From: Leucobacter sp. G161
Lineage (GTDB): Bacteria > Actinomycetota > Actinomycetes > Actinomycetales > Microbacteriaceae
Direction of reading: 5' to 3'
Assembly: GCF_001482305.1 (NCBI RefSeq)
Contig: NZ_LOHP01000017.1
Location: 1-64,000 of the forward strand
Length of the DNA stretch: 64,000 bases
Made by a program: the position numbers and the translations under genes. Below the pieces are notes generated by a model. The model made no database searches. It was not told where the DNA came from and worked only from the letters and a program-made list of their open reading frames with translations. This document shows, in pieces, positions 24,096-29,883 of the stretch (position 1 is its first letter; every line of letters begins with the position of its first letter).

Positions 24096-24464
24096 GGGGC
24101 CGATCGGTTTCGACACGTCGATTTGAGACTGTGAGAAGCGGGCCGAGGACGCGGAGTTATCTCGTAAACGCCCTTCGCAAACCATAGGTGCCACTTCAAA
24201 GCGCACCGACTTCGCTCTCGCTGCCTAAGCACGAGACCGAGTCCGTCAGGCCGGGTGTGCCTCCGCCCCGGTTTCCTGGCGTCATTTAGGGGGCTTGCTG
24301 GTGTGTTGCGTGTCAGGGCACATCGGGACTTTCACTGGGACTGGGCCTGTCATCCTGGATGTTCGTTGCAAAGAATGGGGCCGAGTAGAACGTTTTAACG
24401 AACTACGCTCGTAGAAGGCATGGAATCGTCGAAGTGGACCGGGGTTCAATTCCCCGCGGCTCCA
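24096..24464 (+). ncRNA. ssrA: Transfer-messenger RNA
   Basis: The 5' end GGGGCCGATCGGTTTCGACA and the 3' TGGACCGGGGTTCAATTCCC then CGCGGCTCCA form the tRNA-like acceptor and T arm. The CCA end is not encoded. The tag frame starts at GCC 24190 and reads ATSKRTDFALAA before TAA 24226-24228. tmRNA frees stalled ribosomes and marks the truncated protein for proteolysis, with SmpB as partner. Confidence 0.97.
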
Positions 24465-24595
24465 CGGACATCAGCATCACGCACTGAGTTTTCTGCAGAA
24501 GGCCGCCCTGTGTGGGCGGCCTTTTTGCTTTCCGGCGCCGCCGCGCCGCGCAACCTGGGTTGACAAGGAATGCTTGCGCAACGTAGGTTGACAGC

Positions 24596-24841: not shown

Positions 24842-25860
24842 GCAAGTTCACCGCGGCTGCCGCAACCATGCACACACTGTCGCTGGCAGGGATGGAGGAG
24901 GCTTCGAGGCTCGGGCTGCGCAACGCGGACCTTGAGCACCTGCTGCTCGCGCTGACGATGAGTGAGCACGACGCCGGCAAAGTGCTTCGGGGGTCGGGGG
25001 TTACGCTCGAGGCCACGCGAGCCGCAGTTGCCGAGCAGCACGCCGAGCAACTGCGGGCGCTCGGAGTGGATCATGAGCCGCCACCACCTGGACCCATCGT
25101 GTTTCATGAAACCGGCGGCTACGAGTGGACCGAGCGGGCGCTGGAGGTGTGGAAACGCGCGAGTAAGAATGGCCTCTCGGGAGACGCGTCGGCGGTGCTG
25201 CGGGCGCTCCTTGAGGAGCCGAGCGGGCTCATTAGTGCGGTGCTTGAGCGCCTCCAAGTCGGTCCGGAGGAGCTGCTCGCGAGGCTCGACTCCGCTGAAC
25301 GGATTCCCGCGTTTAAGGATGCCCCGAAGCAGACACCTGGGCGCTACAGCCGCTCGCTCGAATCGTTTGTGCCCGCCTCGGTTGAGTCGGTGTGGGCGCT
25401 GCTCGCGGATCCTGCGCGAATGCCCGAGTGGGATCCGCTGGTCGGAGCCGTCGACCTGCCCGCTGAGCTCGCGGGGCGAGGCCTCCGAGTGGGGGACACC
25501 TGGGAGGCCGACGCGGTGACGCACTTTCCCGACGGGAAGCCGAACAGGCAGCCGCCCGAGCGGCGGCGGACTCGGATCGAGCTCTTGGCGTTCGATGAGT
25601 TCGAGCTGGTCTCATGGCGTCTGAGTTTTCCAGATGCGCCGGCCCTGAACTCGCGCCGCATCACGGTGGCGCTCGAACCTGCCGCGGGCGGAACCCAGCT
25701 TGGCGTCATCTTCGAGTGGGTGCCAACCTCCGAACGGAGGCGGGTTCCGATCGTGCGTCAGCTGCAGCGGTTCCTGCTGGGGCCGGCAACACGCTTTGCC
25801 GTATGGATGCAGGCATCGCAGGTGAGTGGCGGGATCAGTCGGGTGTTTCGGTCGAGTTGA
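24838..25860 (+). CDS. Clp N-terminal (R) domain fused to an SRPBCC domain
   Basis: Residues ~1-145 hold a double Clp repeat domain (TMHTLSLAGMEEASRLGLRNADLEHLLLAL; WTERALEVWKRASKNGLSGDASAVLRALL). This is the substrate/adaptor-binding module of ClpA/ClpC. There is no ATPase domain. Residues ~170-340 are an SRPBCC ligand-binding domain (YSRSLESFVPASVESVWALLADPARMPEW). The fusion suggests a ligand-sensing adaptor or decoy for Clp, which is inference. It is coupled to the HTH gene before it. Confidence 0.75.
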   Translation: MSKFTAAAATMHTLSLAGMEEASRLGLRNADLEHLLLALTMSEHDAGKVLRGSGVTLEATRAAVAEQHAEQLRALGVDHEPPPPGPIVFHETGGYEWTERALEVWKRASKNGLSGDASAVLRALLEEPSGLISAVLERLQVGPEELLARLDSAERIPAFKDAPKQTPGRYSRSLESFVPASVESVWALLADPARMPEWDPLVGAVDLPAELAGRGLRVGDTWEADAVTHFPDGKPNRQPPERRRTRIELLAFDEFELVSWRLSFPDAPALNSRRITVALEPAAGGTQLGVIFEWVPTSERRRVPIVRQLQRFLLGPATRFAVWMQASQVSGGISRVFRSS

Positions 25861-25905
25861 GCGGGGCATTTCCTGTTGTGCGGGACCCGGGAGTTCTCAA
25901 TGCGT

Positions 25906-25934
25906 TTGCGCAATTGGGCAAGTGTTGCTATGGT
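25906..25934 (+). promoter_or_regulatory. Promoter of the magnesium operon
   Basis: TTGCGC (25906-25911) and TATGGT (25929-25934) are separated by 17 bp. Transcription would start near 25941, just before the M-box. Confidence 0.6.
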
Positions 25935-25947
25935 GGAGGGCGTAGCG

Positions 25948-26103
25948 CTTCGTTCGGCGAGGCTCCTGCGTGAACACAGTCCGCTCATCCCACGACGTCG
26001 AGAGACGCCCAGGCTGAGGACAGGCCCTCCCGGCTTAAGGGTCGGCCCCAAGCGGATTCCGGTACCCGGATACGTCACGCAGTGCCAAAGCTCTGACGTG
26101 GAG
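25948..26103 (+). ncRNA. M-box (ykoK) magnesium riboswitch
   Basis: Conserved M-box blocks occur in the right order: GGCGAGGCTCCTG at 25956, ACACAG, GACGTCGAGAGACGCC, GAGGACAGG and CAGTGCCAAAGCTCT at 26080-26094. A closing helix can form between about 25948-25953 and 26096-26103. The element senses intracellular Mg2+ and lies upstream of an mgtA-type ATPase, its classic target. Confidence 0.9.
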
Positions 26104-26112
26104 GTGTGGCGA

Positions 26113-26159
26113 GAACCAGAGGGTTCCGGCCTGCTCGTGCTGGCGGGCGCTGCGGAACC
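26113..26159 (+). promoter_or_regulatory. Mutually exclusive hairpins between the M-box and the leader ORF
   Basis: GGTTC (26122-26126) can pair with GAACC just upstream (26113-26117). Alternatively GGTTCCG (26122-26128) can pair with CGGAACC downstream (26153-26159). The second stem ends 2 nt before the leader ORF's GGAGG. This looks like an expression platform that could change access to the ribosome site. Confidence 0.5.
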
Positions 26160-26173
26160 GAGGAGGTGGCACC

Positions 26174-26242
26174 GTGGACGACGACAGTCGATCATTCACC
26201 CCGCGCGGCCCCCGGGCACGAGCAGCAGCCGGTCAGAGCTGA
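26174..26242 (+). CDS. Putative 22-residue leader peptide of the Mg2+ transporter
   Basis: GTG 26174 follows GGAGG (26162-26166) with an ideal 7-nt gap. The ORF begins with Asp-Asp-Asp, continues SRSFTPRGPR, and ends at TGA 26240-26242. An acidic run followed by prolines is the composition of MgtL-type leaders, whose translation destabilises ribosomes at low Mg2+. It sits between the M-box and mgtA, 131 bp before the mgtA start. No homology was tested, so this is a sequence-pattern argument. Confidence 0.5.
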   Translation: MDDDSRSFTPRGPRARAAAGQS

Positions 26243-26373
26243 AGCTGTACAGCACCCCAGGGAGCGTCGCGCGGTGAGCCGAGGAATTCTCGCGCACCAC
26301 TCCGCTTGATGCCGCCCGCGCAGCCCGCTGCGATCTGACACGGCGCGCGTCCGCACCCGAAGGACCGCCTGTC

Positions 26374-29082
26374 ATGCACACGACCGCCACGACAACCCCA
26401 GCAACCCCACCGACACCCCAAACGCCCAGGAAGCAGCGCAAGTCAGCGGCCCGCCTTCCGGCGGTTGACACCCAGCTGCTCGAACGGGCAGCCACTGCGC
26501 TGCCGGAGAGCGCCCTCGGCCTCGTCGATGCGCACCGCAACGGGCTCACCGCCACCGAGGCGCAGGCCCGGCTCGAGCAGTGGGGCCCGAACCTCGTGCG
26601 CCACCAGCGCCCGCCCCGGCCGATCGTGCAGTACCTGCGCACGCTCCGCAACCCGTTCATTCTGATCCTCATCGGACTCGTCGCGGTGATGTTCGTCACG
26701 GACGTGCTGCTCGCCGGCCCCGAGGAAGGCGCGGACTGGTTTGGCGTGCTCACGATTAGCGCGATGGTGCTCGTGAGCTCGGTCATGCGGTTTTGGCAGG
26801 AGTTTCGCTCGAGCCGCGCGGCTGAGCGGCTCGCGGCGCTCGTGCGCACGACCTCCGCGGTCACTCGCCAGATCGATGGGGTACCGGTAACGGGCGAACG
26901 CCCGAACGAGGAGATCGTGCCGGGCGACATTGTCGAGCTCGCGGCCGGCGATATGCTGCCCGCCGATGTCAGGCTTCTGCGGAGCACCGACCTGCAGGTG
27001 CACCAGGCCATGCCCACGGGCGAGGCAATGCCGGTCGAGAAGCGGGTGACACCGCTCGAGGCGACGAAGGATCCGCTCGAGGCCGAGAACCTCGGATTCA
27101 TGGGCACCTCAGTCGTGTCTGGATCGGGCACCGCCCTCGTGCTGCAGACCGGTGACCGGACGGCCTTCGGTAACCTTGCAGCGTCGATCCAGGGTGCGCG
27201 ACCGCTCACCGCTTTCGACACCGGCATCCAGAAGGTCACCTGGACGCTGATCCGCTTCATGGCGGTCGTCGTTCCCGCAGTGTTCATCATTAACGGGATC
27301 ACGAAGGACTGGGGGAGCGCCTTCTTGTTTGCGGTTGTCACCGCGGTCGGCCTCACCCCTGAAATGCTGCCGCTCGTCGTCACCGCGAACCTCGCCAAGG
27401 GCGCGCAGATGATGTCCCGCTCACGCGTGATCGTGAAGCGGCTTGCCGCGATCCAAGACCTCGGCGGCATGGAGGTGCTCGCGACGGACAAGACGGGCAC
27501 GCTGACGGAGGATCGGATCGTGCTCGAGCGCCACCTCGACACCGCAGGTCACTCGAGTGACCGCACCCTCGGCTGGGCGACCGTGAACTCGCACTTCCAG
27601 ACCGGGCTGCGCAACCTCCTGGACGAGGCCGTGCTCAGCGCGGCGGGGGACGATCTCGACCGCTCGGTGAGCCGCTTTGAACTCATTGACGAGATGCCAT
27701 TCGACTTCGCGAGGCGCCGGATGTCGGTGGTCGTTGCAGAAGACGAGCAGCTGCACGTCATCGTCACGAAGGGTGCCGCGGAGGAGATCCTGCGCATTTC
27801 CGAGTGGGAGATGGTCGGCACCGAGCAGCGTCGCCTCACCGCAGACCGACGGGCCGAGATCGAGGCGATCGTTGCCGAGCACAACGCGCTCGGGGTGCGC
27901 GCGCTCGGGCTCGCGATCCGCGACATTCCGGTCGCAGGACCCCGCAGCCGTGACATCGAGTATGCGGTCGACGACGAGGTGCAGATGACGATGGTCGGGA
28001 TCCTCACCTTCTTCGACCCGCCGAAGGCCTCCGCGAAGCCCGCGCTGCGTTCGCTCGCATCACACGGCATCGACGTGAAGGTCATCACGGGGGACAACCC
28101 ACTCGTCCCGGCGACGGTGTGCCGCGAGGTCGGGATCGATGCCACCAACATCGTGCTGGGCGAAGAAACCGAGGCCCTGTCGCTGGCGGAGCTCGCCGAG
28201 CTCGCCGAGCGCACCCACGTGTTTGCGAAGACGAACCCCTCGCAGAAGGCGAGGATCATCGAAGCAATGCGCGAGGGCGGGCGCACCGTCGGCTATCTCG
28301 GCGACGGCATCAACGATGCTCCAGCGCTGCGCACCGCCGACGTCGGTATCTCGGTGGATACGGCCGTGGACATCGCGAAGGAGTCCGCCGACATCATCCT
28401 GCTCGACAAGGACCTCACGGTGCTCGAGAACGGGGTGATGGAGGGACGGCGCACCTTCGTGAACACGATGAAGTACATCAAGATGACGGCGTCGTCGAAC
28501 TTCGGCAACGTCTTCTCGGTGCTCGTCGCGAGCGCGCTACTGCCGTTCCTGCCGATGATCCCCATCGTCGTGCTCATCCAGAACCTGGCCTACGACCTGT
28601 CGATGCTCACACTCCCGTGGGACAAGGTCGATAAGGAGCAGATCCGTGAGCCCAGGAAGTGGGAGTCGAAGACGCTCGCGCAGTTCATGCTGCGCATCGG
28701 CCCGCTCTCTTCGATCTTCGACATCACGACCTTTGCGCTCATGTGGTTCGTGTTCTCCGCGAACTCGGTGGACCAGGCGGCGCTGTTCCAGTCGGGCTGG
28801 TTCATCGAGTCGATCATCTCGCAGACGCTCATCGTGCACCTGCTGCGCACGCGGAAGCTCCCGTTCCTCCAGTCGCGGGCGAGCGCGCCACTCCTCATCG
28901 CGACTGGGATCGTCTGCGTGTTCGGGTTGATCCTCCCGTTCACGGGTTTCGGTGCTGCCGTTGGGCTCGTCCCGTTGCCGTGGAGCTACTTCCCCTGGCT
29001 CATCGGCACGCTCGCGACGTACTGCGTCGTCGTGCAGCTCGCGAAGCGCAGCTACGTGCGCCGCGTCGGCAGCTGGATCTAA
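26374..29082 (+). CDS. mgtA: Magnesium-translocating P-type ATPase (MgtA-like)
   Basis: This 902-residue type IIIB P-type ATPase imports Mg2+. The phosphorylation motif DKTGTLTEDRI lies near residue 371 and the hinge motif GDGINDAPALR near 643. A DMLPADVRLL segment sits in the actuator domain, and a TM4-like segment reads AVGLTPEMLPLVV. The first ~25 residues are Thr/Pro-rich (TTATTTPATPPTPQTP) and likely disordered. GAAGGA precedes ATG 26374. The M-box riboswitch upstream and mgtC downstream give a self-contained magnesium-starvation operon. Confidence 0.95.
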   Translation: MHTTATTTPATPPTPQTPRKQRKSAARLPAVDTQLLERAATALPESALGLVDAHRNGLTATEAQARLEQWGPNLVRHQRPPRPIVQYLRTLRNPFILILIGLVAVMFVTDVLLAGPEEGADWFGVLTISAMVLVSSVMRFWQEFRSSRAAERLAALVRTTSAVTRQIDGVPVTGERPNEEIVPGDIVELAAGDMLPADVRLLRSTDLQVHQAMPTGEAMPVEKRVTPLEATKDPLEAENLGFMGTSVVSGSGTALVLQTGDRTAFGNLAASIQGARPLTAFDTGIQKVTWTLIRFMAVVVPAVFIINGITKDWGSAFLFAVVTAVGLTPEMLPLVVTANLAKGAQMMSRSRVIVKRLAAIQDLGGMEVLATDKTGTLTEDRIVLERHLDTAGHSSDRTLGWATVNSHFQTGLRNLLDEAVLSAAGDDLDRSVSRFELIDEMPFDFARRRMSVVVAEDEQLHVIVTKGAAEEILRISEWEMVGTEQRRLTADRRAEIEAIVAEHNALGVRALGLAIRDIPVAGPRSRDIEYAVDDEVQMTMVGILTFFDPPKASAKPALRSLASHGIDVKVITGDNPLVPATVCREVGIDATNIVLGEETEALSLAELAELAERTHVFAKTNPSQKARIIEAMREGGRTVGYLGDGINDAPALRTADVGISVDTAVDIAKESADIILLDKDLTVLENGVMEGRRTFVNTMKYIKMTASSNFGNVFSVLVASALLPFLPMIPIVVLIQNLAYDLSMLTLPWDKVDKEQIREPRKWESKTLAQFMLRIGPLSSIFDITTFALMWFVFSANSVDQAALFQSGWFIESIISQTLIVHLLRTRKLPFLQSRASAPLLIATGIVCVFGLILPFTGFGAAVGLVPLPWSYFPWLIGTLATYCVVVQLAKRSYVRRVGSWI

Positions 29083-29133: not shown

Positions 29134-29172
29134 TGCGTGAGCCGGTATCTCAAGTGTGAAAGGTATATGATC

Positions 29173-29883
29173 ATGGAATTTTTCGACCTCGCCCTCCGCA
29201 TCGTCGCGGGTCTCGGCCTCGGCGCCGCGATCGGGTTTGAGCGGCAACTTCGCTCCCGCACGGCCGGCGTGCGCACAAACGCGCTCGTGAGCCTCGGCGC
29301 GTCTCTGTTCGTCATCATGGGGGCATTCAGCTTCACCGAGTCTGGTGCGGATCCCACCCGAGTGGCAGCGCAGATCGTCTCCGGCATCGGTTTCCTCGGG
29401 GCCGGCGTCATCATGAAGCAGGGTGCGTCCATCTCCGGACTGAACACCGCGGCGACGCTGTGGGCATCGGCGGCGGTCGGCGCGCTCGCGGGCGGCGGTA
29501 TGCTGCTCGTTGCCGTCGGCGGCACGATCGCGATCGTACTCTCCAACATTCTGCTGCGGCCACTCGGACGCTTCCTTGACCGGGCCGGGGGATCCGCAAC
29601 GAAGGAACCCGTCGCAACCGAGTACGAGTTCGTCGTGCGATCGTCCGCCGCTGCGGAGGTGGCTGTTCGCGCTCAGGTGGTGACTGCGTTGCAGAATCCG
29701 GAGTTCACCGTGCACTCGCTCGAGGCGAACGACGTCGCCGATGGGATCGTCGAGTTCACCGCGACCGTCGTGTCGCTCGAACGCAACGATGCGGCGCTCG
29801 AGGCCGCGATCGCCGACGTCATCCCCGTTCCCGAGGTCACCAGCGTGCGCTGGACGGCGCAGGAGTTGCGGGGTGAGGACTAA
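29173..29883 (+). CDS. mgtC: MgtC/SapB family membrane protein
   Basis: The 236-residue protein has five N-terminal hydrophobic segments. Family motifs are GAAIGFERQLRSRTAGVRTNALVSLGA and GIGFLGAGVIMKQG, and a soluble C-terminal domain starts about residue 150. MgtC proteins support growth in low Mg2+ and may restrain ATP synthase. I chose ATG 29173 because GAAAGG is 9 nt upstream; GTG 29137 and ATG 29167 are alternatives. The stop overlaps the convergent DUF3054 gene by four bases. Confidence 0.9.
   Translation: MEFFDLALRIVAGLGLGAAIGFERQLRSRTAGVRTNALVSLGASLFVIMGAFSFTESGADPTRVAAQIVSGIGFLGAGVIMKQGASISGLNTAATLWASAAVGALAGGGMLLVAVGGTIAIVLSNILLRPLGRFLDRAGGSATKEPVATEYEFVVRSSAAAEVAVRAQVVTALQNPEFTVHSLEANDVADGIVEFTATVVSLERNDAALEAAIADVIPVPEVTSVRWTAQELRGED

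Follow-up and report, generated by a model that had tools for sequence, protein, structure and literature searches.

In Bacillus subtilis, the ykoK M-box uses an intrinsic terminator to control transcription. To our knowledge, the enterobacterial mgtA leader has no RF00380 M-box. Here we analysed a leader that has both an M-box and a short open reading frame (ORF). It lies ahead of mgtA in a stretch of 64,000 nucleotides (nt) from Leucobacter sp. G161 (NCBI RefSeq assembly GCF_001482305.1, contig NZ_LOHP01000017.1, positions 1 to 64,000 of the forward strand), and "the window" means this whole stretch.

In Mycobacterium tuberculosis, an M-box was reported in 2026 to control the translation of an upstream ORF (uORF), together with Rho termination (PMC12810186). 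Reporters of the pe20 leader showed that the M-box gates short-ORF translation ahead of Mg2+ uptake genes, and effects of the Shine-Dalgarno (SD) and anti-SD sequences were seen (PMC12810186). The mycobacterial uORF2 (Rv1805A) has a conserved proline at position 7, and its peptide was called mycobacterium-specific (PMC12810186). In the MgtL system, the stem-loop that forms depends on translation of mgtL (PMC6460261), and loss of the ribosome at the acidic start makes the Rho site inaccessible (PMC11282234). In the open-licence PMC literature, we found no report of an M-box paired with a uORF in Microbacteriaceae, or of the ORF family described below outside mycobacteria.

The M-Box and the Leader ORF

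The leader of mgtA in the window is a real, conserved two-part leader. We consider it probable that an M-box translational switch controls the conserved leader ORF, and that translation of this ORF decides mgtA expression. The elements involved are as follows.

25942-26110, + strand: M-box (Mg2+) riboswitch aptamer, RF00380, 140.7 bits, E 9.9e-32, gathering score 44
26100-26106, + strand: SD1-like GGAGGTG (anti-anti-SD) within the aptamer's 3' end; across 9 Leucobacter leaders only one column varies (A/G)
26113-26126, + strand: first hairpin, GAACC (26113-26117) and GGTTC (26122-26126)
26129-26137, + strand: anti-SD segment GCCTGCTCG, which can pair with SD1, or with SD2 (26159-26166) with one mismatch
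26133-26148, + strand: second hairpin, GCTCGT/GCGGGC, overlapping the anti-SD
26160-26168, + strand: SD2 GAGGAGGTG, which leads the ORF, without variation among 9 Leucobacter leaders
26174-26242 (including the stop), + strand: leader ORF, GTG start, 22 codons, MDDDSRSFTPRGPRARAAAGQS, led by SD2, 63 nt 3' of the aptamer
26186-26193, + strand: AGTCGATC core of the leader ORF (Ser AGT codon, Arg, Ser), with the motif Ser at 26186-26188

The RF00380 match was full-length (model positions 1-169 of 169). A first-pass annotation of the window had already claimed the M-box, which is present and well above the gathering score. The ribosome site and the 22-codon GTG ORF that it described were also found, at the positions listed here.

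We surveyed M-boxes in overlapping samples of the genus, family, order and class, and found them in 13 of 54, 19 of 398 (18 over the cut-off), 15 of 396 and 26 of 394 genomes, respectively; L039 was excluded from the counts as it was below the family cut-off. The survey loci and 17 further stretches gave 103 M-box leaders above the cut-off. Many of the mycobacterial rows are mutually related, so that row counts overstate the number of independent events.

Conservation in relatives, the check that the first-pass annotation had named for its ORF, was examined in these leaders with a fixed rule: an SD, a start shortly after it, 12-60 codons, and Ser-Pro or Ser-Arg at codons 4-8. Such an ORF was found in 52 of the 103 leaders, which belong to 14 genera in 5 families, whereas 20 rounds of dinucleotide shuffling gave 1.75 leaders on average (range 0-4). 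Therefore, the leader ORF is not a product of chance. The window ORF falls under the rule with Ser5-Arg6, shifted by a one-codon gap. It could be supposed that the ORF has no role at all, since it is short, starts with GTG and lies in GC-rich sequence with many open frames. We give this almost no credence, because it is contradicted by the conservation (52/103 versus 1.75) and by the 14-locus scan and the 9 of 9 Leucobacter mgtA leaders described below.

In addition, 72 M-box ORFs were picked by hand according to SD, start and likeness, and with L105, L113 and L117 they make up a set of 75 ORFs. The alignments were made from chosen groups of 9, 27, 6, 7 + 7 and 25 leaders.

Conserved Start and Codon Choice

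The leader ORFs start with MSDGHSRS in Leucobacter, MIDDHSPS in g55 (the peptide is identical in a named Leifsonia), MSPGHSPR in g116 (identical in a named Frankia), MTSGSSPQ in g115, and MSPGDSPY or MSSSDSPD in g102. We took g102 to be Mycobacterium, given the PPE gene that lies downstream in L052. From the likeness of start, place and codon choice, we infer that all these leader ORFs belong to one family. In L090, L098 and L104 (g102), the motif is kept and the start position reads CTG or ATT instead of ATG, GTG or TTG, which suggests that the start is weak or lost. L075 and L065-L067 have an N-terminal extension ahead of a His-Ser-Cys/Arg motif, and are possible variants of the same family.

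The consensus start in Leucobacter is Met-x-Asp-x-x-Ser(AGT)-Arg. The first-pass annotation had pointed to an Asp-Asp-Asp start; as a conserved signal this was rejected, being found in 2 of 12 Leucobacter ORFs, whereas Asp3 was found in all 12. In the 75 ORFs, Asp, Glu and Pro made up 32.3% of codons 2-9 and 16.4% of later codons, a comparison in which the first codons of ordinary genes have no part. The Leucobacter ORFs have few early prolines.

Two close pairs of leaders were compared. Between L001 and L003, 1 of 53 positions was changed in the SD and first 13 codons, 8 of 49 before them, 14 of 132 after them and 5 of 169 in the aptamer. Between L007 and L009, the corresponding counts were 1/53, 2/49, 15/166 and 2/169. 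SD, start and frame are kept across the leader ORFs, including a whole-codon gap in the lineage of the window. ORF length is 13-47 codons in most rows, and the C-terminal part varies.

The motif Ser codon is AGT in 60 of 62 ORFs; L065-L067, which read one codon early there, also have AGT, and ten other rows have no Ser at the motif place. AGT makes up 4.2% of the Ser codons in 28 ORFs of the window, and 6.1%, 3.4% and 4.6% of those in the loci of Leucobacter, other Microbacteriaceae and g102, respectively, in ORFs picked by a GC rule and with the first codons of ordinary genes outside the comparison. Because AGT is nearly invariant though rare, selection at the motif Ser seems to act on nucleotides besides amino acids. 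In the 75 ORFs, the motif AGT often follows CAT or GAT; RNA pairing, slow decoding or both may account for the preference for AGT. We also considered a conserved TAG in the -1 frame spanning codons 5-6, but rejected it, since it is absent from ORFs whose codon 5 has C, A or G as its last base.

This constraint on codon choice beyond the amino acid could be explained if the conserved stretch were in the first place an RNA element (a small hairpin GACGRC..GTCGATC with an AUAGUC core) and only secondarily a coding sequence. In the Leucobacter alignments, codons 2-8 are predicted to form a hairpin of 6 pairs, but these vary so little that they carry no proof either way. SD, start and frame are kept as well, even across the whole-codon gap, and changing the ATG lowers uORF2 reporter activity in mycobacteria (PMC12810186). 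We therefore regard an RNA element as an unlikely explanation.

We scanned 28 downstream proteins, for which the first long ORF was found by script. The leaders with a picked ORF precede seven gene kinds, namely MgtA, MgtC, MgtE, CorA, Nramp, ABC permease and a PPE gene; therefore, the ORF goes with the leader and not with one gene. This bears on the suggestion, made for Rv1805A in PMC12810186, that the peptide is a functional small protein acting in trans on the transporter. The conserved N-terminus would agree with it, as would the M-box-free homologue Rv0115A reported in M. tuberculosis (PMC12810186). However, the seven gene kinds are unrelated, little beyond the start is conserved, and this conservation extends to a rare codon, so we think a trans-acting peptide quite improbable.

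Leucobacter has a second type of M-box at 10 loci (L002, L013-L021), which has no leader ORF and stands ahead of a small ORF and corA, with CorA assigned by Pfam in L002 and by likeness in the others. The source genome of the window also has an M-box of this type (C74:52730-52896).

Leader ORFs without an M-Box

We scanned 84,980 species genomes for the ORF start, with no M-box in the pattern. The scan gave 14 loci: an M-box was present at 10, and none was found at the other 4 even at E up to 1. These 4 comprise two Leucobacter mgtA leaders, one Leifsonia leader, and L116, whose 100-residue ORF was taken as a probable chance match.

MgtA of at least 64% identity occurs in 9 of 54 Leucobacter genomes, that of the window included; G045 and G047 (38-40% identity) were not counted as MgtA orthologues. 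An SD-led ORF with Asp3 precedes all 9 mgtA orthologues (one ORF, in G017, is divergent, MDDPPNLL), and the M-box is present in 7 of the 9. The M-box-free leaders are those of Leucobacter edaphi (G014, L113) and Leucobacter sp. UT-8R-CII-1-4 (G042, L105). The two form one clade (support 100/99), and the 14 other tree rows have M-boxes; therefore, loss of the M-box is the simpler reading, in a tree with weak deeper forks and a midpoint root. In Leifsonia sp. TF02-11 (L117) no M-box was found, but its permease gene, leader ORF and pre-ORF region are similar to those of M-box-bearing relatives.

A stricter ORF pattern, which misses variants including the window's own ORF, had matches in 7 of the 398 genomes of the family. 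Five of these were M-box loci, another was an M-box-free mgtA, and the last was taken as chance (G164; the reversed-pattern control gave 1 match). By these counts, M-box-free copies of the ORF look rare. G036 and G037 (MGDPLS) were likewise taken as chance, the reversed-pattern control of the scan concerned having given 2 matches.

Because such ORFs follow the M-box in many actinobacteria and persist in a few relatives that have no M-box, they probably help to control the pump themselves. The first-pass idea of two stacked control elements gains from these M-box-free ORFs (2 of 9 Leucobacter mgtA leaders and one Leifsonia leader) and from the starts rich in Asp, Glu and Pro, and loses the Asp-Asp-Asp run and the second stem treated below. 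We propose, tentatively, that an actinomycete-wide leader-peptide family may serve as a second sensor, based on the ribosome, that responds to low Mg2+ or to the resulting translation stress. It would usually be stacked behind an M-box but could also act alone, with Leucobacter edaphi and Leucobacter sp. UT-8R-CII-1-4 as examples, and would be an actinobacterial counterpart of MgtL switched on by a riboswitch.

The ORF could instead be a passive gate, in which ribosomes shield the RNA from Rho and the peptide and its codons are irrelevant. Such a gate would allow for the variable length (13-47 codons in most rows) and C-terminal part, and it agrees with the riboswitch and Rho model of PMC12810186. 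However, a gate would not need first codons as conserved as these, in which the motif Ser is encoded by AGT in 60 of 62 ORFs, and the ORF also stands in three leaders that have no M-box. A purely passive gate is therefore, in our view, rather unlikely. The role of the uORF was left open in PMC12810186, the single experimental description that we found. The occurrence of similar ORFs in five families, ahead of seven gene kinds and in three leaders that lack the riboswitch, speaks for a leader peptide that acts in cis, and the M-box-free leaders offer a direct way to ask whether the ORF alone responds to Mg2+.

Base Pairing around SD1 and SD2

According to the first-pass annotation, the GGTTC behind the M-box can pair with either of two partners, and the second stem ends 2 nt before a GGAGG. 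Both partners exist (GAACC at 26113-26117 and CGGAACC at 26153-26159), and the GGAGG begins at 26162. The first hairpin can form in 9 of 9 aligned Leucobacter leaders with changed sequences, as judged by eye; in the register of the automatic alignment, 1 of its 5 pairs is broken in 6 of 9 leaders, since the loop is shifted by one base. The GGTTCCG/CGGAACC stem showed 79.4% of alignment cells paired, compared with 77.0% in shuffles, of which 121/500 were as high, and one of its pairs is broken in 7 of 9 leaders. As it did no better than shuffles, we rejected it as a conserved switch. It exceeds its slid versions (24.6-52.7%), as is expected for a stem taken from one aligned sequence. For the second hairpin (26133-26148), 94% of cells were paired and 13/500 shuffles were as high. 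The first-pass claim that the riboswitch gates translation of a short ORF thus stands in its general form, which is the arrangement shown by the pe20 reporters (PMC12810186) and agrees with the conserved ORF, and falls in its particular second stem.

When the Leucobacter alignment is folded, SD1 is paired with 26129-26132, with a compensatory change of one A-U pair to G-C in 2 of 9 leaders. The accessibility of SD2 was estimated from folds that start at the aptamer end, where SD1 is hidden, or 16 nt earlier, where SD1 is free. In the window, the unpaired probability of SD2 was 0.19 with SD1 hidden and 0.69 with SD1 free. Among 25 chosen leaders, freeing SD1 raised the accessibility of SD2 in 13 and lowered it in 2. 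As predicted from these folds, a switch made of SD1, anti-SD and SD2 fits better than the second stem of the first-pass annotation, with significance not reached in every test.

A Possible Helix between the ORF and Downstream RNA

In the Leucobacter mgtA leaders, part of the ORF can pair with RNA behind it.

26201-26210, + strand: 5' strand of the helix, inside the leader ORF (codons 10-13)
26265-26274, + strand: 3' strand of the same helix, behind the ORF

In six Leucobacter mgtA leaders, 95% of the cells of this helix were paired and two pairs were changed on both sides. Only 8/500 shuffles were as high on paired cells and covariation score, and 26.8-53.3% of cells paired when the helix was slid. 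The alignment fold beat all 150 column shuffles, with z -3.6 for the six Leucobacter leaders and z -5.2 for seven rv1535-type leaders. A class-wide helix was rejected (long-duplex mean z -0.31 over the 75 ORFs, 11 below -2), and the helix was retained for the Leucobacter mgtA (6) and rv1535-type (7) leaders only. The effect of a ribosome on the helix would depend on whether it pauses or leaves early or continues to the stop codon, which resembles MgtL.

Proposed Mechanism

At high Mg2+, the aptamer would close over SD1, the anti-SD would pair with SD2, and the ORF would stay untranslated; transcription would then probably stop early through Rho. At low Mg2+, SD1 would open and capture the anti-SD, leaving SD2 free and the ORF translated. 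The ORF would be a cis-acting leader peptide and no transporter subunit. Ribosome progress through it may be a second check, as in MgtL attenuation, which is suggested by the conserved start and the helix at codons 10-13. Our analysis shows the parts, their conservation and the M-box-free ORFs; we infer the switch, ORF translation and Rho termination in Leucobacter, as well as any Mg2+ sensing by the ORF itself, like that of MgtL.

Several results weigh against this mechanism. A picked ORF is lacking in 31 of the 103 M-box leaders, including all 10 of the second Leucobacter type; this number is partly a matter of judgement, the rule-based 52/103 being the objective count. The 9 g220 M-box loci have no picked ORF either. 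The accessibility of SD2 stayed level in 10 of the 25 chosen leaders, the pairing of anti-SD with SD2 showed no covariation, and for Leucobacter the fold of the aptamer-to-ORF region did not surpass that of shuffles (z 0.18). As for the helix, 51/500 shuffles match its both-side pair changes and 415/500 its pair types, and sliding it by -1 gives an equal covariation score, though only 31.7% of cells then pair. It was unsupported in seven mgtE-type leaders (z 1.04), and a contiguous-helix test of 45 picked representatives gave a Fisher p of 0.087, with 5 below 0.05. Finally, the main termination site of M. tuberculosis lies upstream of uORF2 (PMC12810186), and thus Rho may not depend on uORF2.

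Layout of the mgtA Locus

The remaining features of the locus are listed below.

25906-25934, + strand: likely promoter TTGCGC-17-TATGGT, ending 7 nt 5' of the aptamer (by eye)
26280-26437, + strand: C-rich, G-poor stretch, candidate Rho loading region, C/G 1.48-2.40 per 78-nt window
26374-29082, + strand: mgtA, Mg2+ P-type ATPase, TIGR01524, 1144.9 bits versus a cut-off of 610.75
29137-29883, + strand: mgtC-like gene, 3' of mgtA, best match NF011912, 156.5 bits, below the curated cut-off of 255

The stretch at 26280-26437 is a candidate for Rho loading by its base composition. In a consensus scan, no sigma-70 match was found for the likely promoter at 25906-25934. By eye, 16 of the 20 Leucobacter M-box leaders inspected have TTGCGC near this position, which reads TTGACA in L004 and TTGTGC in L006, and none was seen in L005 and L011. 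In the M-box-free leaders L105 and L113 it stands directly 5' of the ORF, about 50 nt before it (also by eye). The TTGCGCAA element is common to Leucobacter Mg2+ leaders, including L105 and L113, where it is upstream of the ORF, and the window (25906-25934). It is partly palindromic (ACTTGCGCAAGT) in several leaders, and may be a -35 region or an operator. A transfer-messenger RNA (tmRNA) gene lies at 24096-24467 (RF00023, 146.8 bits), about 1.5 kb 5' of the M-box.

Comparison with Known Systems

The ykoK M-box of B. subtilis shares with the Leucobacter leader the RF00380 aptamer family, and is an OFF-switch at high Mg2+ (PMC12810186). The Leucobacter leader differs from it in that no intrinsic terminator was found in 25860-26400.

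MgtL, which precedes mgtA in Salmonella and Escherichia coli, has in common with our leader a short ORF before mgtA and acidic or proline residues in its first 9 codons (PMC6460261, PMC11282234). In both, pairing of the leader RNA is tied to ORF translation, and control is linked to Rho, which for Leucobacter is our conjecture. However, the likeness is one of composition only and no sequence relation is claimed; the Leucobacter ORFs have Asp3 but few early prolines. We hypothesize that the leader ORF works like MgtL, and do not claim that it belongs to MgtL.

The pe20 and rv1535 M-box leaders with uORF2 (Rv1805A) share with the Leucobacter leader the M-box, SD1 at the aptamer end, the anti-SD, SD2, a short ORF with a conserved start, and Mg2+ uptake genes downstream (PMC12810186). 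The scheme of SD1, anti-SD and SD2 proposed for Leucobacter is the published mycobacterial one. Leucobacter differs in having mgtA, Asp at codon 3, and Arg instead of Pro at codon 7. The g102 rows match the position-7 proline of uORF2. The window ORF has Arg there, and was thus filed in the wider family and not in Rv1805A proper. Similar ORFs also occur outside mycobacteria, which argues against the peptide being mycobacterium-specific, and they are M-box-free in the leaders of three relatives. The layout of M-box and uORF is thus known from mycobacteria, and its wider spread, its riboswitch-free occurrence and the RNA pairing are the additions made here.

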